Source: Nitrospira tepida
Lineage (GTDB): Bacteria > Nitrospirota > Nitrospiria > Nitrospirales > Nitrospiraceae
DNA length: 64,000 nucleotides
NCBI RefSeq assembly: GCF_947241125.1
Contig: NZ_OX365700.1
Coordinates: forward strand, 1,240,001 to 1,304,000
Direction: 5' to 3'
The notes below the pieces were generated by a model, which did no database searches, had not been told where the DNA came from, and saw only the letters and a program-made list of their open reading frames with translations. The position numbers and the translations under genes were made by a program. This document shows, one piece after another, positions 19,427 through 38,154 of this stretch (the first letter of the stretch is position 1; each line of letters starts with the position of its first letter).

Positions 19427-19759
19427 TCAGTCGGTGCCGGTGGGGCCGAGGCTCGGGCTCGACCGGCGCCCGGTCGCGCATGCCATCCAGATCGGGGTGG
19501 TCGGCGTCCGTGCTCCGGCGCTCCGTCGGAAGGCCGGCGAATCGGCGCCGCGGCATCGGTTGGCCCGGATCACGGGATCGTCGATCGAGCCGCAATTGAC
19601 GCACCGGTGGCAAGCATCGCGTTCTTCCCAGCGGGGCCCGAGATGGTCAAAGAGGGTATCGGTAACAAGCAGCCCGCCGCAGCGGCCACAGGGTGCCGAG
19701 GGCGCCGGATGGATCGCGCCGGGTGAAGAGCAGCGGAGCTGCCGAGAACGATTTCCCAT
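19427..19759 (-). CDS. small zinc-ribbon protein
   Basis: A 110-residue protein starting at ATG 19759 with AAGGAGA upstream; the in-frame sequence back to 19807 is dismissed. Two Cys pairs, CGRCGG and CVNCGS, are separated by about 29 residues. A DPVIRANR segment follows, a layout I associate with short zinc-ribbon proteins that recur in Nitrospira-like genomes (from memory, not searched). Function is unknown. The last 40 residues are low in structure and may not be conserved. A minus-strand -24/-12 element lies at 19824-19840. Confidence 0.65.
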   Translation of the reverse strand: MGNRSRQLRCSSPGAIHPAPSAPCGRCGGLLVTDTLFDHLGPRWEERDACHRCVNCGSIDDPVIRANRCRGADSPAFRRSAGARTPTTPIWMACATGRRSSPSLGPTGTD

Positions 19760-19823
19760 GGGCTGAGTCTCCTTACTTGGCGGTTTCACCCCTGAGAACG
19801 GAGGCATTCCTTTTTACGACCCC

Positions 19824-19840
19824 ACGCAAGATTCGGTCCT
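19824..19840 (-). promoter_or_regulatory. sigma-54-like -24/-12 promoter for the zinc-ribbon/nucleotidyltransferase genes
   Basis: Read on the minus strand, AGGACCG-AATC-TTGCG has GG and GC spaced by exactly ten bases, with an ideal TTGC -12 box and a partial -24 box. The transcription start would fall near 19812, about 50 bases before the zinc-ribbon ATG. It diverges from the promoter at 20057-20072, with the palindrome at 19964-19991 between them. Confidence 0.45.
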
Positions 19841-19963
19841 ATCCCTGCTTGTCTTTTCCTCGGTCGCCTGAACGCGCCGGGGCATGGCTGGGCAGAGGGT
19901 CCATTCTCTTCCCGTCCTTTCGGTCCGGGACGGCGCGGCCGCATCTCGCTCAGCCTGGACACG

Positions 19964-19991
19964 AATCCGCACGGTGCGTTCCGTGCGGATT
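19964..19991. promoter_or_regulatory. 28-bp palindrome, candidate activator site between divergent sigma-54-like promoters
   Basis: Perfect 11-bp inverted repeat AATCCGCACGG / CCGTGCGGATT separated by TGCGTT. The core CCGCAC-N10-GTGCGG with an inner TGCG two bases after the left arm recurs with identical spacing at 29694-29715 and 34549-34570. It lies 66 bases before one -24/-12 element and about 124 bases from the divergent one, a normal position for a bacterial enhancer-binding protein. Confidence 0.65.
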
Positions 19992-20056
19992 AGCTCGCTT
20001 TGCCGGATGACGATCCGCGCCTTGCCAGGATTCCGGCGCAGGGAGGACCGGCGGAG

Positions 20057-20072
20057 CTGGTATGGCCCTTGC
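20057..20072 (+). promoter_or_regulatory. sigma-54-like -24/-12 promoter of the kinase/activator operon
   Basis: CTGGTATGGCCCTTGC matches the YTGGYAYR-N4-TTGC consensus at every defined position except the final W (C here). The expected start site is near 20084, ahead of the kinase ATG at 20145. Because the second gene of the operon is an NtrC-type activator, autoregulation is likely. Confidence 0.65.
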
Positions 20073-20144
20073 CCGTACTGGTTCCACGATGTTTGACAAG
20101 GGATGGAGCCGGTCTTTAGGATGGCTTGTTCGCGCGGAGACCCC

Positions 20145-22076
20145 ATGCGAGAGAAGCTCGCCCGCCTGTTTCGCAATCTTCCCATCGAACGCAAGCTCCT
20201 TCTTGCTTCCGTCATCCCCCTTGCGGCGCTCATCATGCTGAGCCTGGTGACCTATCAGAGCGTGGAGGTGTTCTCCCACGACGAGGACGAGCTGCAACGC
20301 ATCTATCAGGCCCAGGCCCTCTCCTCCGAATACATGCGGCTGGCGGTGGACTTGGAAACCGGCTTCCGCGGCTACACCTTGACGAACCAGGACAGTTTTC
20401 TCCGTCCCTTCCAAACCGCCCGCGAGGGCATCCTCATCCTGGGCAACATGCTGGAAGGGCTGGTCAGCGAAGACCCGTCGCAGCGGGCGATGATCGAGGA
20501 GGTCCAAGCCCTCGTCGAGCAGATGGTGCGGGAGAAGGAAGCGCTGATTCAGCAATTGAAGGCGGGACGGCAGGAGGAAGCCGAGCACTACATCGAGGAA
20601 GGCCAGGGGCGAGTCCTGATGGCGGGCATCCGAAACGGCATGGCGCAATTCACGGCGCTCCAACGGAATCTGCTGAACGCCAGGCTGGCGAGCGTCAGCC
20701 TGGACCGGACGTCGTTGCTGTACGTGGTGCTGTGGGGAGGGGCGCTGACGTTGGGCCTGACGGTCCTGGCGCTGCACCTGGTCGCCCGGTCCATCACCGG
20801 ACCGCTGATCGGTCTGGCCCGGGCCGTCGGAGGCGCGCCGTCCGGGGCTGTGCCAGCCGTTCCCGTCCTGGAGCGGCAGGACGAAATCGGACACCTGACC
20901 CAAGTCATGCATGCGATGAGCGTGCAGATCAAGGAACACCTGTCGAAACTGGAAGAATCGGAAGCCGAGCTGCGGGGGGTCAACCAGGACCTGTCCGCCT
21001 CCGAGGCGAAATACCGCAGCCTGGTCGACCACGCGCCGTTCGGCATCTTCACCACCAAGGGCATGAGCATCACTTTCAGCAACCGGTACAACCAGACCCT
21101 GGCCGGTCTGGACCCGGATGACCAGATGAACCCCGACATGTTCCGCCATTCCATCCATCCCTCGGACCGCCAGCGCGTGTTGACGGAATTCGCCCAGGCG
21201 ATCGAGCAGGATCGGCCCTGCGAGACCGTGTTTCGGTTTCTGCAGAAGGACGGGACGGTCCGCAAGGTGCTGAGCCGCCGCATTCCGATCAAGGACGCGG
21301 CGGGTCAAACCATCATGTATCAGGGATTCAACATCGACATCACGGCCTTGGACCTCTTGCAGGAACGGTTGAGCCGCTCGGAACGGTTGGCGACATTGGG
21401 CCAGGTGGCGGCCGGCATCGCGCACGAGATCCGAAATCCGCTCGTGGGGATCGGCTCCACGACGGCCTTGCTGATGGATGATACGCCGCAGTCGGATCCG
21501 CGCCATGCGGAGTTGGGGATTATCCTGCGTGAAACCAGACGGCTCGACCGCATCGTGAACCAGATCATCGACTATGCGCGGCCTCGGGAAGTGGCCCCGA
21601 TCACCTTTGCGGTTGAGGACCTGCTCGGCGAAACAGTGAAGGTGCTGGAGGCGTCCCTGGCGGCCAAGCGAATCGAGGTGGCGAAGGAGGTGCCGCCCGG
21701 CGGGCTCACGCTGCACGCGGATCGCGATCAACTCAAGCAGGTGCTGCTGAACCTGATCCAAAACGCCGTCGACGCTTCCCCGGAAGGCGGGCGCGTCACC
21801 CTTAGCGCGTTCTCGATGCCGGGCGACCGCGGCCCCGGCCTGGTGCTCAAGGTCGCCGATGCCGGTTGCGGAATTCACAGCGAGGATCTGGCCCATGCGT
21901 TCGAGCCCTTTTTCACGAAGGGCAAGCATCGCGGCACCGGACTGGGATTGGCCATTTGCCGCAACATCATCGAAGCGCACGGGGGCGACATCCAACTCAC
22001 CAGCGAGGTCGGCAAGGGCACCAGCGCCAGGATTTGGCTGCCCGTCCGCCAGGACGTGACGGTCATCGAGGGGTAG
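20145..22076 (+). CDS. membrane sensor histidine kinase (CHASE3-HAMP-PAS)
   Basis: A 643-residue kinase from the ATG at 20145 (an earlier in-frame ATG at 20103 would sit close to the predicted transcription start). Transmembrane segment 1 is at about residues 17-37, a periplasmic CHASE3-type helical sensor with DLETGFRGYTLTNQDSFL at about 40-185, TM2 at about 190-215, HAMP to about 265, PAS at about 285-400. HisKA has His427 in GIAHEIRNPLVG; the HATPase has GTGLGLAICRNI near the end. It is two bases upstream of the NtrC-type regulator and is its expected partner. The external signal is unknown. Confidence 0.92.
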   Translation: MREKLARLFRNLPIERKLLLASVIPLAALIMLSLVTYQSVEVFSHDEDELQRIYQAQALSSEYMRLAVDLETGFRGYTLTNQDSFLRPFQTAREGILILGNMLEGLVSEDPSQRAMIEEVQALVEQMVREKEALIQQLKAGRQEEAEHYIEEGQGRVLMAGIRNGMAQFTALQRNLLNARLASVSLDRTSLLYVVLWGGALTLGLTVLALHLVARSITGPLIGLARAVGGAPSGAVPAVPVLERQDEIGHLTQVMHAMSVQIKEHLSKLEESEAELRGVNQDLSASEAKYRSLVDHAPFGIFTTKGMSITFSNRYNQTLAGLDPDDQMNPDMFRHSIHPSDRQRVLTEFAQAIEQDRPCETVFRFLQKDGTVRKVLSRRIPIKDAAGQTIMYQGFNIDITALDLLQERLSRSERLATLGQVAAGIAHEIRNPLVGIGSTTALLMDDTPQSDPRHAELGIILRETRRLDRIVNQIIDYARPREVAPITFAVEDLLGETVKVLEASLAAKRIEVAKEVPPGGLTLHADRDQLKQVLLNLIQNAVDASPEGGRVTLSAFSMPGDRGPGLVLKVADAGCGIHSEDLAHAFEPFFTKGKHRGTGLGLAICRNIIEAHGGDIQLTSEVGKGTSARIWLPVRQDVTVIEG

Positions 22077-22078
22077 CT

Positions 22079-23467
22079 ATGCAGATCACCATCTTTGTGA
22101 CGGACGACGAACCCGCCATCCGGTCGGCCATCGTCAAGCGGCTCTCCCGCAAGAAGCATCGGGTCGTCGGGTATGAGTCCGGCGACGCGTTGCTGGCCGC
22201 CGTGGAGCACGAGATCCCCGATTTGATCCTGCTCGACCTGAAGATGCCGGGCCTCAGCGGGCTGGACACGCTCAAGAAAGTCCGCCCGCTCGCGCCCCAG
22301 GCTCTGATCATCATGCTGACCGCGTACGGCACCGTGCAGGGCGCCGTCGAGGCCATGAAGCTGGGCGCCTACGATTTTCTCATCAAAACGGTGGATCTGG
22401 ACGGCATCGAGCCGGTGTTGGCGCGCGCCATCGATCTGCTGGGCCTTCGCCTCAGGCTGGAGGAGGAGGGGCGGGATCAGGACAGCCAGTACGCCCTGTC
22501 CAACCTGGAAGCGAACAGCCCGCTCATGCAACAGATCCTGGCGCAGGCGCGGGACGTGGCGTCCAGCGCCCGGTCGACCGTGTTGTTGTTGGGGGAGACG
22601 GGCACGGGCAAGGAGTTCCTCGCGCGGGTGCTGCATCACAACGGCGCGCGCGCCAGGGGGCCGTTCATCGGGGTCAACTGTACGGCGATTCCCAAGGATC
22701 TGTTCGAGAGCGAGCTGTTCGGGTTCGAACGAGGGGCCTTCACGGGCGCCTCGCAACGGAAGATCGGCCTGCTGGAGAAATCGGAAGGCGGCACGTTGTT
22801 CCTGGACGAGATCGGAGACCTCGATCTGGCGATGCAGGGAAAATTGCTTCGCGTCCTTCAGGAGCGTTCCTTCAGGCGGCTGGGCGGCACCGACGACATC
22901 GGGGTGGACTTTCGGCTGATCGCCGCCACCAATCGGGACCTCAAAAAAGCCGTCGCGTCGGGACTCTTCCGTGAAGACCTGTTCTTCCGTTTGAACGTGA
23001 TGACGTTCGAGTTGCCGCCGCTGCGGAAGCGGGTGGAGGACATCCTTCCCCTGTGCCGGCGGGCCCTGTTCCGCTACGGCAAGGAGTTCGGCAAGGACGT
23101 GATGGAGATCGAGCCGGACGCGGCGGCGATGCTCCAACAATATGCGTACCCCGGCAATATTCGCGAGCTGGAGAATATCATCGAACGCGCGATGATCTTC
23201 TGTCAGGGGCAGATGCTGACGGCCGACCATCTCCCCGCCGAACTGCGGAACCGGGTCGGGCAGACCGCCGTGACGGTGGTGCAGGGAGAGGAGCAGTTGC
23301 TGCGGGTGGAAGCGAAGCTCGGGAAACAGTCGTTGGCGGACATCGAGCAGGCGATCATCCAGGAAGTGCTCCGTCTCAGCGACTACAACAAGACCGCCGC
23401 CGCCAAGCATCTGGGATTGACCAGGTTTGCACTGGATCGCCGCTTGAGAAAGGCCGAGGACGAGTAG
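22079..23467 (+). CDS. NtrC-family sigma-54 response regulator
   Basis: A 462-residue protein from ATG 22079, directly after the kinase stop; the longer open frame is shadow of the kinase gene. The receiver domain (1-120) has Asp53 in LILLDLKMPG. The AAA+ domain has Walker A GETGTGKE near 173, the sigma-54-contacting GAFTGA at 219-224, Walker B LFLDEIGDL, and RLNVMTFELPPLRKR. The C-terminal Fis-type helix-turn-helix includes DYNKTAAAKHLGLTR. All parts needed to remodel sigma-54 holoenzyme are intact. The nearest candidate target is the palindrome and promoter pair just upstream of its own operon. Confidence 0.94.
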   Translation: MQITIFVTDDEPAIRSAIVKRLSRKKHRVVGYESGDALLAAVEHEIPDLILLDLKMPGLSGLDTLKKVRPLAPQALIIMLTAYGTVQGAVEAMKLGAYDFLIKTVDLDGIEPVLARAIDLLGLRLRLEEEGRDQDSQYALSNLEANSPLMQQILAQARDVASSARSTVLLLGETGTGKEFLARVLHHNGARARGPFIGVNCTAIPKDLFESELFGFERGAFTGASQRKIGLLEKSEGGTLFLDEIGDLDLAMQGKLLRVLQERSFRRLGGTDDIGVDFRLIAATNRDLKKAVASGLFREDLFFRLNVMTFELPPLRKRVEDILPLCRRALFRYGKEFGKDVMEIEPDAAAMLQQYAYPGNIRELENIIERAMIFCQGQMLTADHLPAELRNRVGQTAVTVVQGEEQLLRVEAKLGKQSLADIEQAIIQEVLRLSDYNKTAAAKHLGLTRFALDRRLRKAEDE

Positions 23468-23894
23468 CTTCCAGCGCCCTCCTTCCGCTTCTCCGTTCTC
23501 CTCCCTTTTCACTTCTTACTGTTCCCTTTCATCCGAATCGTGTTCTGCAACGGTACGCGTCGTTTCGTTTCGTGATCACCCTGCGTGCCTGCCGCGATGC
23601 CCTCTCTCGTTAATCCTCTCCTTCCGGGCGATTCAGAGCGAAATCGCACAGGCCGCTCGCCCCTTCCACGCTCGTCGCGTCTGCTCCCGTTGGTCTCGAT
23701 CGACCAGCTTGCTCAATGAGGACGCGGGCGGCTTGATGTTTCGGCCAATTCGTCCTCTGCGCCAAGGCTGCGGCCATCAGCCGGCCTGCCTGTCAAATAC
23801 ATGCGGGCATGGACATTGCTCCGCCGACTCTGTGTCGGATGATGTCTGACAGACGGACGACGCGAACGGATCGAGTCGGCACGAAGGAGGCGCC
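23468..23894. other. 427-base intergenic region before the FNT gene
   Basis: Non-coding. It contains the end of the activator operon, a sigma-54-like promoter at 23803-23820, an inverted repeat GAGGACG / CGTCCTC around 23718-23757, and a half-site-like AATCGCAC near 23645 that resembles the left arm of the palindromes elsewhere. In the leader, CCGAC-TCTGT-GTCGG and GTCTGACAGAC form two short hairpins. Confidence 0.5.
23803..23820 (+). promoter_or_regulatory. sigma-54-like -24/-12 promoter of the FNT transporter
   Basis: CGGGCATGGACATTGCT fits YTGGYAYR-N4-TTGCW with one mismatch (G for T just before the GG). GG and GC are spaced ten bases apart. The expected start is near 23831, about 64 bases upstream of the ATG at 23895. 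Confidence 0.6.
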
Positions 23895-29682: not shown

Positions 29683-29693
29683 TGGCGGAGAAA

Positions 29694-29715
29694 TCGCACG
29701 GTGCGGTTCGTGCGA
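29694..29715. promoter_or_regulatory. second copy of the spaced palindrome
   Basis: TCGCAC-N10-GTGCGA with an inner TGCG, matching the site at 19967-19988 in spacing and inner motif. The -24/-12 element starts 62 bases downstream. Confidence 0.55.
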
Positions 29716-29776
29716 AATCGCTCGATTATGGATGGTTCAAATCGGCCAGGCCAAGTCTTTCCGGCTACTTGGAACA

Positions 29777-29792
29777 AGGCACGGCTGTTGCT
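29777..29792 (+). promoter_or_regulatory. sigma-54-like -24/-12 promoter of a 48-residue membrane protein
   Basis: AGGCACGGCTGTTGCT agrees with TGGCACG-N4-TTGCW at all but the first base. GG and GC are ten bases apart. The start site would be near 29803, about 48 bases before the GTG at 29851. Confidence 0.65.
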
Positions 29793-29850: not shown

Positions 29851-29997
29851 GTGAAATTCTGGAAACAATGCGGAGATCAGGAGTTCCTGTGGTTGCTGGT
29901 GGCGCTCATTGCCATGGCCGTCTGGGTCACCAATGCCTGGATGTCGGACCCCAGCCCCTTAATGACGGTGACCGGCACGGTTCCGCCGGGCTCGTAA
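29851..29997 (+). CDS. 48-residue single-pass membrane protein
   Basis: GTG start with GAAAGGGA about nine bases upstream. The peptide begins MKFWKQCGDQEF, has one membrane helix (LWLLVALIAMAVWVTNAW) and a short polar tail ending VTGTVPPGS. The longer frame from 29701 overlaps the promoter elements and is rejected. Placement directly after a palindrome plus -24/-12 promoter is the main support. Function unknown; a stress-induced membrane peptide or a regulator of the neighbouring exporter are both possible. Confidence 0.5.
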   Translation: MKFWKQCGDQEFLWLLVALIAMAVWVTNAWMSDPSPLMTVTGTVPPGS

Positions 29998-34364: not shown

Positions 34365-34548
34365 GACGCAAGACAGTGCGGCGACAGGATAAGACCATCC
34401 CGAGCCGGATAGATCGGACTCGTTCATGGAACAGCCCGCCGGAGGGTGACGGGACTCTATCGCAACAAGTCGGCGCCATCCGTCCACCGGTCTCCATCCG
34501 CGGATTTCTGCTGGGTGCTTCAGTCTGTGACCTGGATTTCGATCGGAT

Positions 34549-34570
34549 CCGCACCATGCGCACCGTGCGG
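34549..34570. promoter_or_regulatory. third copy of the spaced palindrome
   Basis: CCGCAC-N10-GTGCGG, with the same arms as the site between 19964 and 19991 and an inner TGCG at the same offset. It lies about 127 bases before the candidate promoter at 34697. Confidence 0.5.
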
Positions 34571-34696
34571 GGCGTCTTGACGGATGAGAGCGGGCGATCC
34601 GCTCGCGACCGATTGTGTTGAACCTCGAAGCGACTTTTGCTGCGCCCGCCACGGCTTAGATCCCACAATCCCTTCACCATCCGCTCGACAGCGCCA

Positions 34697-34712: not shown

Positions 34713-34805
34713 CCGCTCAAAACCGGCGGCGCGCAGGCCGACCGCACCACGTGCCGTCGTCGCCGTCGATTGACATCTGATATGCGTACCAGGGAGAGAC
34801 GATGG

Positions 34806-35099
34806 ATGAGTGGCGGAAGGGATTACACAGGGGGTCCTGTCTCGTTCTCCCGGTCCCTGGAGCGGCAGGTGCTCGCTCTGCTCGCCATCCGCCCTCGGTT
34901 GCCGTTCAGGGTGCTGGTCGGGTTATTGCCCGGTCGTCCCACGGGCGATCTGTTCGCCGCGTTGCGCCGTTTGCGTGAGCGGGGACAGATCGTGGTGGCG
35001 CCAAGCAGACGGGATTTTGATCTCGTACGGGTGGACCCGGATCTTCAAGAGTACGGTGTCGGCTCCCGCCCCGCCGACGCGCAGGAGCGTGAGGGCTGA
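34806..35099 (+). CDS. hypothetical winged-helix-like protein
   Basis: 97 residues from ATG 34806 with AGGGAGAG upstream (ATG 34782 in the same frame is an alternative). The segment LERQVLALLAIRPRLPFRVLVGLLP, then TGDLFAALRRLRERGQIVV and a strand pair, reads like a compact winged-helix DNA-binding fold. This is only a shape judgement. It is the first gene of a plus-strand series that continues with a lipoprotein, SPFH protein, receiver and protease. Confidence 0.5.
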   Translation: MSGGRDYTGGPVSFSRSLERQVLALLAIRPRLPFRVLVGLLPGRPTGDLFAALRRLRERGQIVVAPSRRDFDLVRVDPDLQEYGVGSRPADAQEREG

Positions 35100-35117
35100 C
35101 GGCTTGGGTGCCGGCCA

Positions 35118-35468
35118 ATGAGCCGATGTACCGCGATGCTCGTGGGAAGCCTGCTGGTCTGGGAGGTCTGCCTGATGGGCGGATGCGCCGTTCCCGCAAC
35201 AGAACTGGAACTCGGGTCGCGAGATCCGTCCCTCGATCACCGGAAAATTGCGCGGTACTACCACCAAGAGGCCGCCCGGCTCTGGAAGCAGTCGGAGGAC
35301 ATGACGGTGCGGGCTATTCAGTACGAACACCTCTTCGGTCCTTCGTCAGACTGGGTCCAGGGAACGAAGTTGCTGGCCGAGTCCTATCGTGCCGCGGCCA
35401 TGGAACACGAACGTCTGGCCGGTCGACACCAGGACTTGGCCGAGGGGCGGGCCGTGGAGGAACCATGA
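35118..35468 (+). CDS. hypothetical lipoprotein
   Basis: 116 residues, with a signal peptide and lipobox LMGGC (Cys23). The mature part is helical, with YYHQEAARLWKQSEDM and LLAESYRAAAMEHERLAGRHQ, and may form a coiled coil. It overlaps the start of the SPFH gene by four bases (ATGA), so the two are translationally coupled and probably work together at the membrane. Not recognised otherwise. Confidence 0.7.
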   Translation: MSRCTAMLVGSLLVWEVCLMGGCAVPATELELGSRDPSLDHRKIARYYHQEAARLWKQSEDMTVRAIQYEHLFGPSSDWVQGTKLLAESYRAAAMEHERLAGRHQDLAEGRAVEEP

Positions 35469-36361
35469 ACCGGCATTGGACGGCGCTGTGGCTGTGTGGT
35501 CTCCTCCTGATCCTGTGCAGCTGTGCGACGACGGTGCATCCCGGGCAGCGGGGCCTGCGCTGGTACCCGCTCACCGAAGGCCTGACGACCGAGACCTTGA
35601 AGAGCGGACTCTATTGGCGGGCGCCGTGGAACGACGTGTTCGTCTATGACGTCCGGTGGCAGAGCTTTGTCGAGACCGTCGATGCGCTGAGCTCCGACGA
35701 TCTTCTCGTCAAGCTGCGGGCCGCCATCATCATTCGGCCCATCGCGGAGGAGGTCTATTTCCTTGCCCAGGAAATCGGTCCGGATTTCTATCCGCGCGTG
35801 GTGCGGCCCGAACTGCTGGCGGCGGTGCGCAGCGTGGTGTCCAACTATCCCATGGTCAACGTGCCAGAACAAAGCGCGGAGATCGCGAGCAAGGTGCAGG
35901 CGGTGGTGGTGGAAAAACTCAAGGGCCGGCACCTGGAGGTGGCGAGCGTCGCATTGGCCGAAGTGGAACTGGCCAAGCTGGTGCTGGAAGCGGTGGAGCG
36001 GAAACAGGCGAAGGAGCAGGAGAAGGAACAAAAGGATTTCGAGCTGGTGATCGCCGAGAAGGATGCCGAGATCGCCCGTCGGCGAGCGAGGGGAGAGGGC
36101 GACGCCATCCGGATCCGATCGGAAGGGGAGGCGGAGGGGCTGAAGATTCGAGCGAACGGACAGGCCAAGGCCCAGGAGACGATCGCGAAGACACTGACGC
36201 CGGACTATCTGCGCTTCAAGTTGTACGACAGCACCAATGCCAAATTTGTGCTGCTGCCTGATGATCTCAAGGTGCCGGTGCTGATCAATCCCGGCCCGTC
36301 CGATACCCAGCGGTTCTCCCAGGAGATGCCGCCGCATGCGGGGTCCGCCGCAGGGCCGTAG
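35465..36361 (+). CDS. SPFH/band-7 (prohibitin-like) lipoprotein
   Basis: 298 residues. Unusually for this superfamily, the N-terminus is a lipoprotein signal with lipobox LCSC (Cys20) rather than a plain membrane anchor. The band-7 domain spans about 28-190 (GLRWYPLTEGLTTETLKSGLYWRAPW; DLLVKLRAAIIIRPI), followed by a charged coiled coil (ERKQAKEQEKEQKDFE; RRRARGEGDAIRIRSEGEAEG). Prohibitin-like proteins scaffold membrane domains and modulate proteases. That fits its position four bases into a lipoprotein gene and upstream of a receiver and an HtrA-like protease. Confidence 0.85.
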   Translation: MNRHWTALWLCGLLLILCSCATTVHPGQRGLRWYPLTEGLTTETLKSGLYWRAPWNDVFVYDVRWQSFVETVDALSSDDLLVKLRAAIIIRPIAEEVYFLAQEIGPDFYPRVVRPELLAAVRSVVSNYPMVNVPEQSAEIASKVQAVVVEKLKGRHLEVASVALAEVELAKLVLEAVERKQAKEQEKEQKDFELVIAEKDAEIARRRARGEGDAIRIRSEGEAEGLKIRANGQAKAQETIAKTLTPDYLRFKLYDSTNAKFVLLPDDLKVPVLINPGPSDTQRFSQEMPPHAGSAAGP

Positions 36362-36493
36362 CCGCCGGGGACAACGGCGCGCCGACTGGGTCAGGGATCG
36401 ACGAACCACGAATGCGACGTGGGCAGGAAGCCCGGCAATGGTGCGGAGACCGCACGGACAGCGCGAAACCGATCGATCCTCAAGGGAGGGACC

Positions 36494-36898
36494 ATGGAAA
36501 CCAGACGGAAGCGCATCTTGGTGGTGGATGACAGCGAAGAGATCAGATCGCTGATGGCCTGGCTCCTCGCCGGCGAGGGATATGTGGTGAGCGAGGCCTG
36601 CGACGGGGAGGAGGCGTTGAGGCGGATCCAGGCCGAGCCGTTCGACGTGGTGGTCACCGACTTTCAGATGCCGGGCCTGAACGGCCTCGAGGTGATGGCG
36701 CATGCGCGCGAGCAGGACGACCGGAGGCCGGTCATTATCGTCTCAGGGCTCGATACGGATCTGTCCCGGCTCGCCGTCGAGTTGGGCGCCTATGCCTGGC
36801 TGACCAAACCGCTGAGTGGTCCCCTGTTTCTGGGTATCGTGGATTCCGCCGCGACCGCAGGACAACGGGAGGCTTCGCCGGTCGGCGGCACGGCCTGA
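36494..36898 (+). CDS. single-domain response regulator
   Basis: 134 residues from ATG 36494 (AAGGGAGGG upstream). A receiver with acidic pair in VVDDSEE, phospho-Asp in VVVTDFQMPGLNGLE, and Lys in WLTKPLSGPL. No output domain. No kinase is adjacent, so its partner lies elsewhere; the nearest kinases in the window are at 13418 and 20145. An inverted repeat GTGCGG-AGA-CCGCAC at 36439-36453 lies upstream; it resembles the palindrome arms but in the opposite arrangement. Confidence 0.88.
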   Translation: METRRKRILVVDDSEEIRSLMAWLLAGEGYVVSEACDGEEALRRIQAEPFDVVVTDFQMPGLNGLEVMAHAREQDDRRPVIIVSGLDTDLSRLAVELGAYAWLTKPLSGPLFLGIVDSAATAGQREASPVGGTA

Positions 36899-36978
36899 GC
36901 CCTTCACTCTATATGGGCCTCTCGGCGACCGTTCATCGGCGGGGCCGGAGCCGAGCGGTTGCGTAAGGAGAGAACGAC

Positions 36979-38154
36979 ATGACACGACGCATGCATGCGG
37001 ACTGCCGGCGCCGGGTGGCGCACTGTCTCTTCCTATGGACGGTGCTCATCGCGTCCGGCCAAACCCACTCCTCCCTGGCGGCCGCATTCGAAGAGGATCA
37101 AACCGTCCGGCTATATGAGCGCGTCGCGCCCGCGACCGTGTTTCTGTCCACCTCATCCGTGCGCCACAACGGCGTCCCCGGCTCCTCGGCTGTTGGGTTC
37201 GGGGCCGGCTTCATCCTCGACCGGGAGGGGACGGTGTTGACCAATGCCCATGTGGTCGCCGGCGCCTCGACCATCACCGCCACCCTCTACGATGGGCAGC
37301 GGGTCACCGCGGAGCTGCTCGGTATCGATCCGCAAACCGACGTCGCCGTGGTGAAATTGGCGCCGGTCAAAGGCCAGCTCGCCACCGTTCGGCTCGGAGA
37401 TTCGAATCGCATCAAGGTGGGCCAGAAGGTGCTCGTCGTAGGCAGCCCCTTCGGCCTGGGCTTCACGCTGACCAGCGGCATTGTCAGCGGATGGGGCCAC
37501 ATGCGGGGACAGGGGACGGGAATGGACGACGGCATGATTCAGACCACGGCGCCGATCAATCCCGGCAACAGCGGCGGGCCGGTCATGAATTCGAACGGCG
37601 ATGTCATCGGCATTACCACCGCCATCATTCCCGGCGCCCAGAACATCGGTTTTGCGATCCCGATCAACCGCGCCAAGGCCGTCCTCGACGAGCTGAAGAC
37701 GAACGGACATGTCGCGCGGCCCTGGTTGGGCGTGACCGGCAGCTTCCCAACCGACCAGATGCTGACGCTGTTCTCGCTCCCCTTGACCAAGGGGTGGCTG
37801 GTCGAACAGGTGGAGGAAGGCAGTCCTGCGGCGGAAGCGGGGCTGCTGGGCGGCGCGCTGCACATCGTGGTGGAAGGCACTCCGTGGACGTTGGGCGGGG
37901 ATATCATCCTCTCCATCCAGGACCAACCGGTGCGGTCGCCGGATGAATTTTTGCAGGTAATCAAAACCTTGCACATCGGAGACAAGGTCGACGTCGAATT
38001 CCTGCGGGCGGGAGATCTCCATCGGACGGTGATCACGTTACGGGAGCGTCCCATTCCCGCCGTGACGCCGCAAGTCCAGACAAGCTTTCCGCTCGCGGAC
38101 ACCGCCACGCCGGTCGGACCGCGATGGGGATGGGAAACCGGGTCTAGATACTAG
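36979..38154 (+). CDS. HtrA-like trypsin-type serine protease
   Basis: 391 residues. The signal peptide is within residues 1-36. Protease domain: His in VLTNAHVVAGA, Asp in DPQTDVAVVKL, Ser in NPGNSGGPVMN. One PDZ domain (about 250-350) includes GWLVEQVEEGSPAAEAGLLGG. It has one PDZ where DegP at 30141-31661 has two, so it may be the regulatory or signalling (DegS-like) rather than bulk-degrading protease, although no C-terminal anchor is seen. It follows the receiver gene by 80 bases. Confidence 0.9.
   Translation: MTRRMHADCRRRVAHCLFLWTVLIASGQTHSSLAAAFEEDQTVRLYERVAPATVFLSTSSVRHNGVPGSSAVGFGAGFILDREGTVLTNAHVVAGASTITATLYDGQRVTAELLGIDPQTDVAVVKLAPVKGQLATVRLGDSNRIKVGQKVLVVGSPFGLGFTLTSGIVSGWGHMRGQGTGMDDGMIQTTAPINPGNSGGPVMNSNGDVIGITTAIIPGAQNIGFAIPINRAKAVLDELKTNGHVARPWLGVTGSFPTDQMLTLFSLPLTKGWLVEQVEEGSPAAEAGLLGGALHIVVEGTPWTLGGDIILSIQDQPVRSPDEFLQVIKTLHIGDKVDVEFLRAGDLHRTVITLRERPIPAVTPQVQTSFPLADTATPVGPRWGWETGSRY

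Follow-up and report, generated by a model that had tools for sequence, protein, structure and literature searches.

A putative bidirectional sigma-54 control region between a zinc-ribbon/nucleotidyltransferase operon and a two-component kinase/regulator operon in Nitrospira tepida

The intergenic gap at positions 19760-20144 of the analysed stretch of the Nitrospira tepida genome (64 kb in total, referred to as the window) raises the question of how two divergent gene pairs are controlled from only 385 bases. On the minus-strand side the gap is flanked by the genes for a small zinc-ribbon protein of 110 aa (CGRCGG...CVNCGSIDDPVIRANR; 19427-19759, minus strand), for which no Pfam family scored above cut-off but relatives of which are encoded by operons that the element drives in other genera, and for a sugar-1-phosphate nucleotidyltransferase (PF00483; 18440-19405, minus strand), which is nearest to mannose-1-phosphate guanylyltransferase with a TIGR01479 score below cut-off. 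On the plus-strand side it is flanked by the genes for a membrane sensor histidine kinase of 643 aa with the Pfam architecture CHASE3-PAS-HisKA-HATPase (20145-22076, plus strand) and for an NtrC/AtoC-type response regulator (22079-23467, plus strand) with the complete NtrC-family domain set, i.e., receiver (PF00072), sigma-54 AAA+ (PF00158) and Fis-type HTH (PF02954) domains. Sigma-54 is encoded in the genome (PF04552 at 1710368-1710850, 3.4e-57). From the sequence comparison described here, it is highly probable that the gap controls sigma-54 transcription in both directions and belongs to a regulon of the whole family, in which the regulator would bind a 36-nt element and activate both operons, while a sigma-70 promoter would provide a basal supply.

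The palindrome as part of an oriented 36-nt element

The perfect 11-bp inverted repeat that the preliminary description had placed between two divergent promoters is exact at 19964-19991, consisting of AATCCGCACGG (19964-19974), TGCGTT and CCGTGCGGATT (19981-19991), and it is present as a single copy in the 4.73-Mb genome with up to three mismatches allowed. It forms the core of a longer, oriented element of 36 nt with the consensus GAGCGRWTYCGCAC-N4-CGCAC-N-GTGCGRA, which in the gap reads GCGAGCTAATCCGCACGGAACGCACCGTGCGGATTC (19963-19998, minus strand; exact core at 19968-19987) and constitutes a putative regulator-binding site and upstream activating element. The genome-wide scans used patterns and sequence-only models. 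A shared motif was found upstream of formate/nitrite-family transporter (FNT) genes in other genera, where consensus -24/-12 sites are present as well, and a matrix built from seven of these transporter sites, none of them from the window, picked up three high-scoring copies within the 64-kb window, at 29690-29725, at 34539-34574 and at the gap repeat. With the smaller first model R1 (7 FNT sites) the gap element only reached E=0.94; with model R2, from whose training set the sites of the window were left out, it reached E=1.7e-5 genome-wide. A matrix trained on 45 elements exclusively from other genomes assigned it 39.5 bits and gave no match of at least 9 bits in the reversed 64-kb window. 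The core CGCACN4CGCACNGTGCG has four exact copies in the 4.73-Mb genome, of which three lie no more than 13 kb from the regulator gene, and occurs in 32 of the 119 related genomes, every one from a single family; the backward core pattern had zero matches in the own genome and in the 119 related genomes.

Orthologues of the kinase/regulator pair are present in many relatives; a search of genome contigs with the kinase retrieved distant relatives only, which were left out of the comparison. Scored with model R2 at E up to 0.01, the element is present in 38/38 family members encoding the regulator and in 3/33 without it (p ~6e-17, a guide only, as related genomes are counted as independent), and these three genomes are incomplete or fragmented at 230-610 contigs. 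The contrast is also seen inside genera g6 (5/0 with versus 0/6 without the regulator), g10 (6/0 versus 0/7) and g19. The adjacent regulator (22079-23467) is presumed to be the binder of the element, and by co-occurrence and proximity it is the most likely one. The 36-nt gap element is thus very probably, as judged from these comparisons, the binding site of the two-component regulator turning on both gene sets. Besides the full-length protein, a second regulator copy without DNA-binding domain, 59-62% identical, is encoded just upstream of the kinase/regulator pair in genus g10 and in G069; such copies were observed at L112 4927-6102 and L113 5157-6353 and in G070, G091, G094 and G069, and they could compete with the full-length protein or modulate its activity.

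Predicted sigma-54 promoters on both sides of the element

Sigma-54 sites were scored by a home-made weighting. Among the 45 element copies from other genomes, 28 have a consensus -24/-12 site (score at least 18.5) at a distance of 68-95 nt, on the strand complementary to the one that reads GAGCG in the element, with 0.27 expected by chance (p ~4e-51, again a guide only given the relatedness of the genomes). The distances of these class A sites cluster at 68-72, 79-82, 89 and 95 nt and are phased at 10.5 bp (Rayleigh p ~2e-7 for 45 copies from other genomes, likewise to be read as a guide). On the other side of the element a second form, nGGAYYnnnnnTTGCA (class B), is found ahead of small wHTH, zinc-ribbon and SPFH operons: GGAY...TTGC lies at 68-137 nt in 14 of 17 wHTH/zinc-ribbon operons (2 of them own), mostly at 100-137 and most often at 126-137 nt. 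Class B-side sites with a score of at least 15.5 occur at 125-137 nt in 10/45 copies, with 1.7 expected (p ~5e-6, a guide only, since the genomes are related and both spacing and consensus were set after data inspection), and none occurs on the opposite strand at this distance and score in the 45 copies.

Both sites of the gap fall into this scheme. The plus site TGGTATGGCCCTTGCC (20058-20073, score 18.5) is a near-consensus, putative class A promoter toward the kinase/regulator operon with a predicted start at ~20084; it is located 80-81 nt from the element centre, where the sites of relatives cluster, and only 12 sites on the two strands of the 64-kb window score as well. The minus site AGGACCGAATCTTGCG (19840-19825) is a predicted class B promoter toward the zinc-ribbon/nucleotidyltransferase operon at 137 nt from the element, matching the form that is seen at 126-137 nt before homologous operons. 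By itself it is weak (score 16.5), as it has no T at -26, GGAC instead of GGCA and no final A/T, and its assignment as a promoter comes from the comparison. GG and GC spaced 10 bp apart are found in both sites, and the putative activator site lies 80 and 137 nt away, inside the range of ~70-200 bp upstream for an activator in helical phase, with phasing across relatives seen for class A only. Compared with relatives, the repeat and both -24/-12 sites exceed chance on the sequence level; the stronger plus-strand and the weaker minus-strand site had both been named in the preliminary description, and they hold at these positions.

That description overlooked a sigma-70-type promoter of the kinase gene, TTGACA-N18-TAGGAT (20093-20122, plus strand), which sits downstream of the plus sigma-54 site and ahead of the start codon of the kinase. 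It is the most conserved feature ahead of the kinase: TTGACA-N17/18-TAnnAT is found in 12/20 kinase upstream regions, the own one included, and in 0.13% of shuffles. Since it is better conserved there than the -24/-12 site, this observation alone would argue against the plus sigma-54 site, and dismissal of this site as an accident was considered because it is unaligned before most kinase orthologues, unlike the sigma-70 promoter; the comparison centred on the element overturned that reading.

Four alternative readings have to be weighed. It is unlikely that only one side is real, with the element driving the kinase/regulator operon, the minus -24/-12 site being a chance match and the zinc-ribbon operon transcribed otherwise. 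In its favour are the score of only 16.5 (scores of at least 16.5 occur at ~9e-4 per position, corresponding to a chance of ~1% at 125-137 nt) and the finding that the zinc-ribbon gene is directly opposite the kinase in no relative examined. However, the same GGAY...TTGC is found at this distance and in this orientation before homologous wHTH/zinc-ribbon operons of several other genera, and the predicted minus start would leave a leader of 55 nt, containing an AGGAG motif, ahead of the ATG at 19759. The reverse situation, in which the kinase/regulator operon is transcribed from the sigma-70 promoter 20093-20122 alone while the element and the -24/-12 sites serve the opposite operon only, appears slightly less probable still. 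The plus -24/-12 site indeed has no counterpart at this position in most of the 12 upstream regions with the sigma-70 promoter, but kinase orthologues of G011, G028, G031 and G063 are preceded by the element and a strong class A -24/-12 site at 80-90 nt, and the own site is in phase.

The two remaining readings concern the element. Its recognition by an NtrC-type regulator different from the neighbour-encoded one deserves equally little weight: other NtrC-type regulators exist in the same genome, with more than 100 candidate relatives in a first-look search before scoring, but element and neighbouring regulator co-occur within genera, many genomes have their element copies grouped close to the regulator gene, and the recognition helix of the regulator is nearly invariant in all orthologues. 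Least plausible by far, and close to negligible, is that, instead of binding a protein, the palindrome acts in RNA or as a mobile repeat, such as a terminator hairpin or a REP-like element. A perfect 11-bp stem is possible, but no T-run follows the palindrome, it is single-copy at three mismatches, an Rfam search of the gap 19760-20144 gave no match, the unpaired GAGCG arm is conserved too and conservation tracks the distance to the -24/-12 sites. Around ten other genomes repeat the two-sided layout with both promoter classes, consistent with the earlier proposal that one enhancer would serve both operons; in G028, G031 and G063 the kinase lies on the class A side, and in two of these (G028, G031) the zinc-ribbon gene ends the divergent operon. 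In the closest relatives G027 and G009 the element is absent directly ahead of the kinase, so autoregulation via the element would not be universal.

Genes linked to the element

The predicted class A targets comprise the kinase/regulator pair, a membrane microprotein of 30-50 residues with a GDRE-W motif, FNT transporters and RND proteins (the RND label being a sequence reading, not a family search). Class B targets comprise a small wHTH-like protein, a lipoprotein-like protein, SPFH, the zinc ribbon and sometimes a nucleotidyltransferase, a receiver and trypsin/PDZ proteins. FNT promoters are found on either side of the element, and the microprotein gene is on the class B side in three genomes (L271, L272, L276).

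Within the window, the second strong element (29690-29725, minus strand; 43 bits) is accompanied by a -24/-12 site AGGCACGGCTGTTGCT (29777-29792, plus strand) upstream of the gene for a 48-aa GDRE-W microprotein (29851-29997, plus strand), a class A target. The family consists of single-span membrane proteins of 30-50 residues, M...KK.GDRE[LI].W..LA..., from many genera, and its genes were observed directly behind element-linked sigma-54 promoters, mostly of class A (29851-29997, plus strand; L249, L250, L255-L258, L261, L265, L270-L272, L275-L277). Two members gave no match above cut-off (the one of the window in Pfam and NCBIfam, that of a relative in NCBIfam), and the family is probably unannotated in most genomes. 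The third element (34539-34574, plus strand) is followed at 137 nt by a class B site CGGATCAACAATTGCA and precedes genes (34785-38154) for small wHTH-like, lipoprotein-like, SPFH, receiver and trypsin/PDZ proteins. Most class B operons begin with the gene for the wHTH-like protein of ~80-100 aa (34785-35099, plus strand; L252, L254, L267, L273, L283); a weak AsnC-type HTH match was obtained for a relative (E=0.002) and no match for the copy of the window.

A degenerate element (23636-23661, plus strand) with a -24/-12 site GGGCATGGACATTGCT at 23805-23820 lies upstream of an FNT gene (PF01226; 23895-24788, plus strand), whose homologues in other genera have the element and a sigma-54 promoter. 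FNT genes with -24/-12 promoters were seen in about ten genomes (L122, L120, L181, L185, L180 and the own site at 23805-23820), those at L181 and L185 with no recognisable element. Further copies of the element in the own genome are located at 353960 (ahead of a PAP2-like gene, a label read from its sequence, of which a 75-residue fragment gave no Pfam match), 2028495 (ahead of an RND gene) and 3904764 (ahead of an uncharacterised gene).

In several other genera, too, zinc-ribbon operons are under the predicted control of elements. G030 and G015 both have the nucleotidyltransferase gene behind the zinc-ribbon gene, G030 with the element upstream and G015 with none directly upstream, but it is missing from most element-driven zinc-ribbon operons. 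The link to surface polysaccharide supply that had been envisaged together with envelope sensing is hence only weakly supported, and the targets as a whole, which extend beyond polysaccharide supply, point to a response of the membrane or envelope.

Proposed mechanism and relation to known systems

The sequence comparison establishes that the element exists, where the two promoters lie, that these features recur and that the element is tied to the regulator gene, and on this basis the following course of events may be proposed. The CHASE3 kinase (20145-22076) would sense a signal and phosphorylate the NtrC-type regulator (22079-23467), which would then bind 19963-19998 through the CGCAC/GTGCG half-sites and, from there, contact sigma-54 polymerase at two promoters. 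Activation at the plus site 20058-20073 would increase transcription of the own kinase/regulator operon, i.e., positive autoregulation, and activation at the minus site 19840-19825 would turn on the zinc-ribbon/nucleotidyltransferase operon, while the separate sigma-70 promoter 20093-20122 would maintain basal kinase/regulator supply. Beyond this locus, we lean slightly toward a sigma-54 regulon of Nitrospira-type bacteria spanning the whole family, in which the oriented enhancer would set a close consensus side (class A: kinase/regulator, microprotein, transporters) against a farther altered side (class B: wHTH/zinc-ribbon/SPFH) and which might serve an envelope or nitrite-related stress response not yet described, with the conserved membrane protein of 30-50 residues as a main output.

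Sigma-54 is generally associated with envelope, lipoprotein and polysaccharide genes according to a broad survey, in which no mention of this regulator, element or regulon was found (Francke et al., 2011; PMC3162934). Sigma-54-dependent regulators next to nxrAB were described in the nitrite oxidisers Nitrospira, and no connection of these to the kinase/regulator locus was found (Mundinger et al., 2019; PMC6606698). The literature search, with thin coverage of subscription papers, yielded no description of this element-linked regulon. A single gap thereby leads to a predicted regulon, with regulator, binding site, promoters and targets named in dozens of genomes, which makes signal, targets and logic testable in nitrifying bacteria, whose regulation is poorly known; it also illustrates that a weak-looking promoter is recognisable from where it consistently lies with respect to an enhancer.

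The best full-length NCBIfam matches are AtoS for the kinase and AtoC and NtrC for the regulator, all below equivalog level (AtoC 426 of 714, NtrC 408 of 559, AtoS 225 of 646 bits required). Targets and element both differ from those of AtoSC/NtrBC; the NtrC site is TGCACC-N5-GGTGCA, unlike the 36-nt element. The closest known arrangement is zraP-zraSR of E. coli and Salmonella, where ZraR acts in the shared spacer with divergent sigma-54 promoters on its own operon and on zraP (PMC4987338, PMC8249747). Both loci combine a two-component kinase and an NtrC-type regulator with divergent sigma-54 promoters, predicted in the present case, that share a regulator site. By equivalog scores the proteins described here are not ZraS, ZraR or ZraP (192 of 479 and 337 of 760 bits required for ZraS and ZraR). 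Furthermore, a zinc ribbon and a nucleotidyltransferase are encoded opposite the kinase instead of ZraP, the kinase is of the CHASE3-PAS type and has an additional conserved sigma-70 promoter, and in contrast to ZraR with its one high-affinity target the element is present in several copies per genome.
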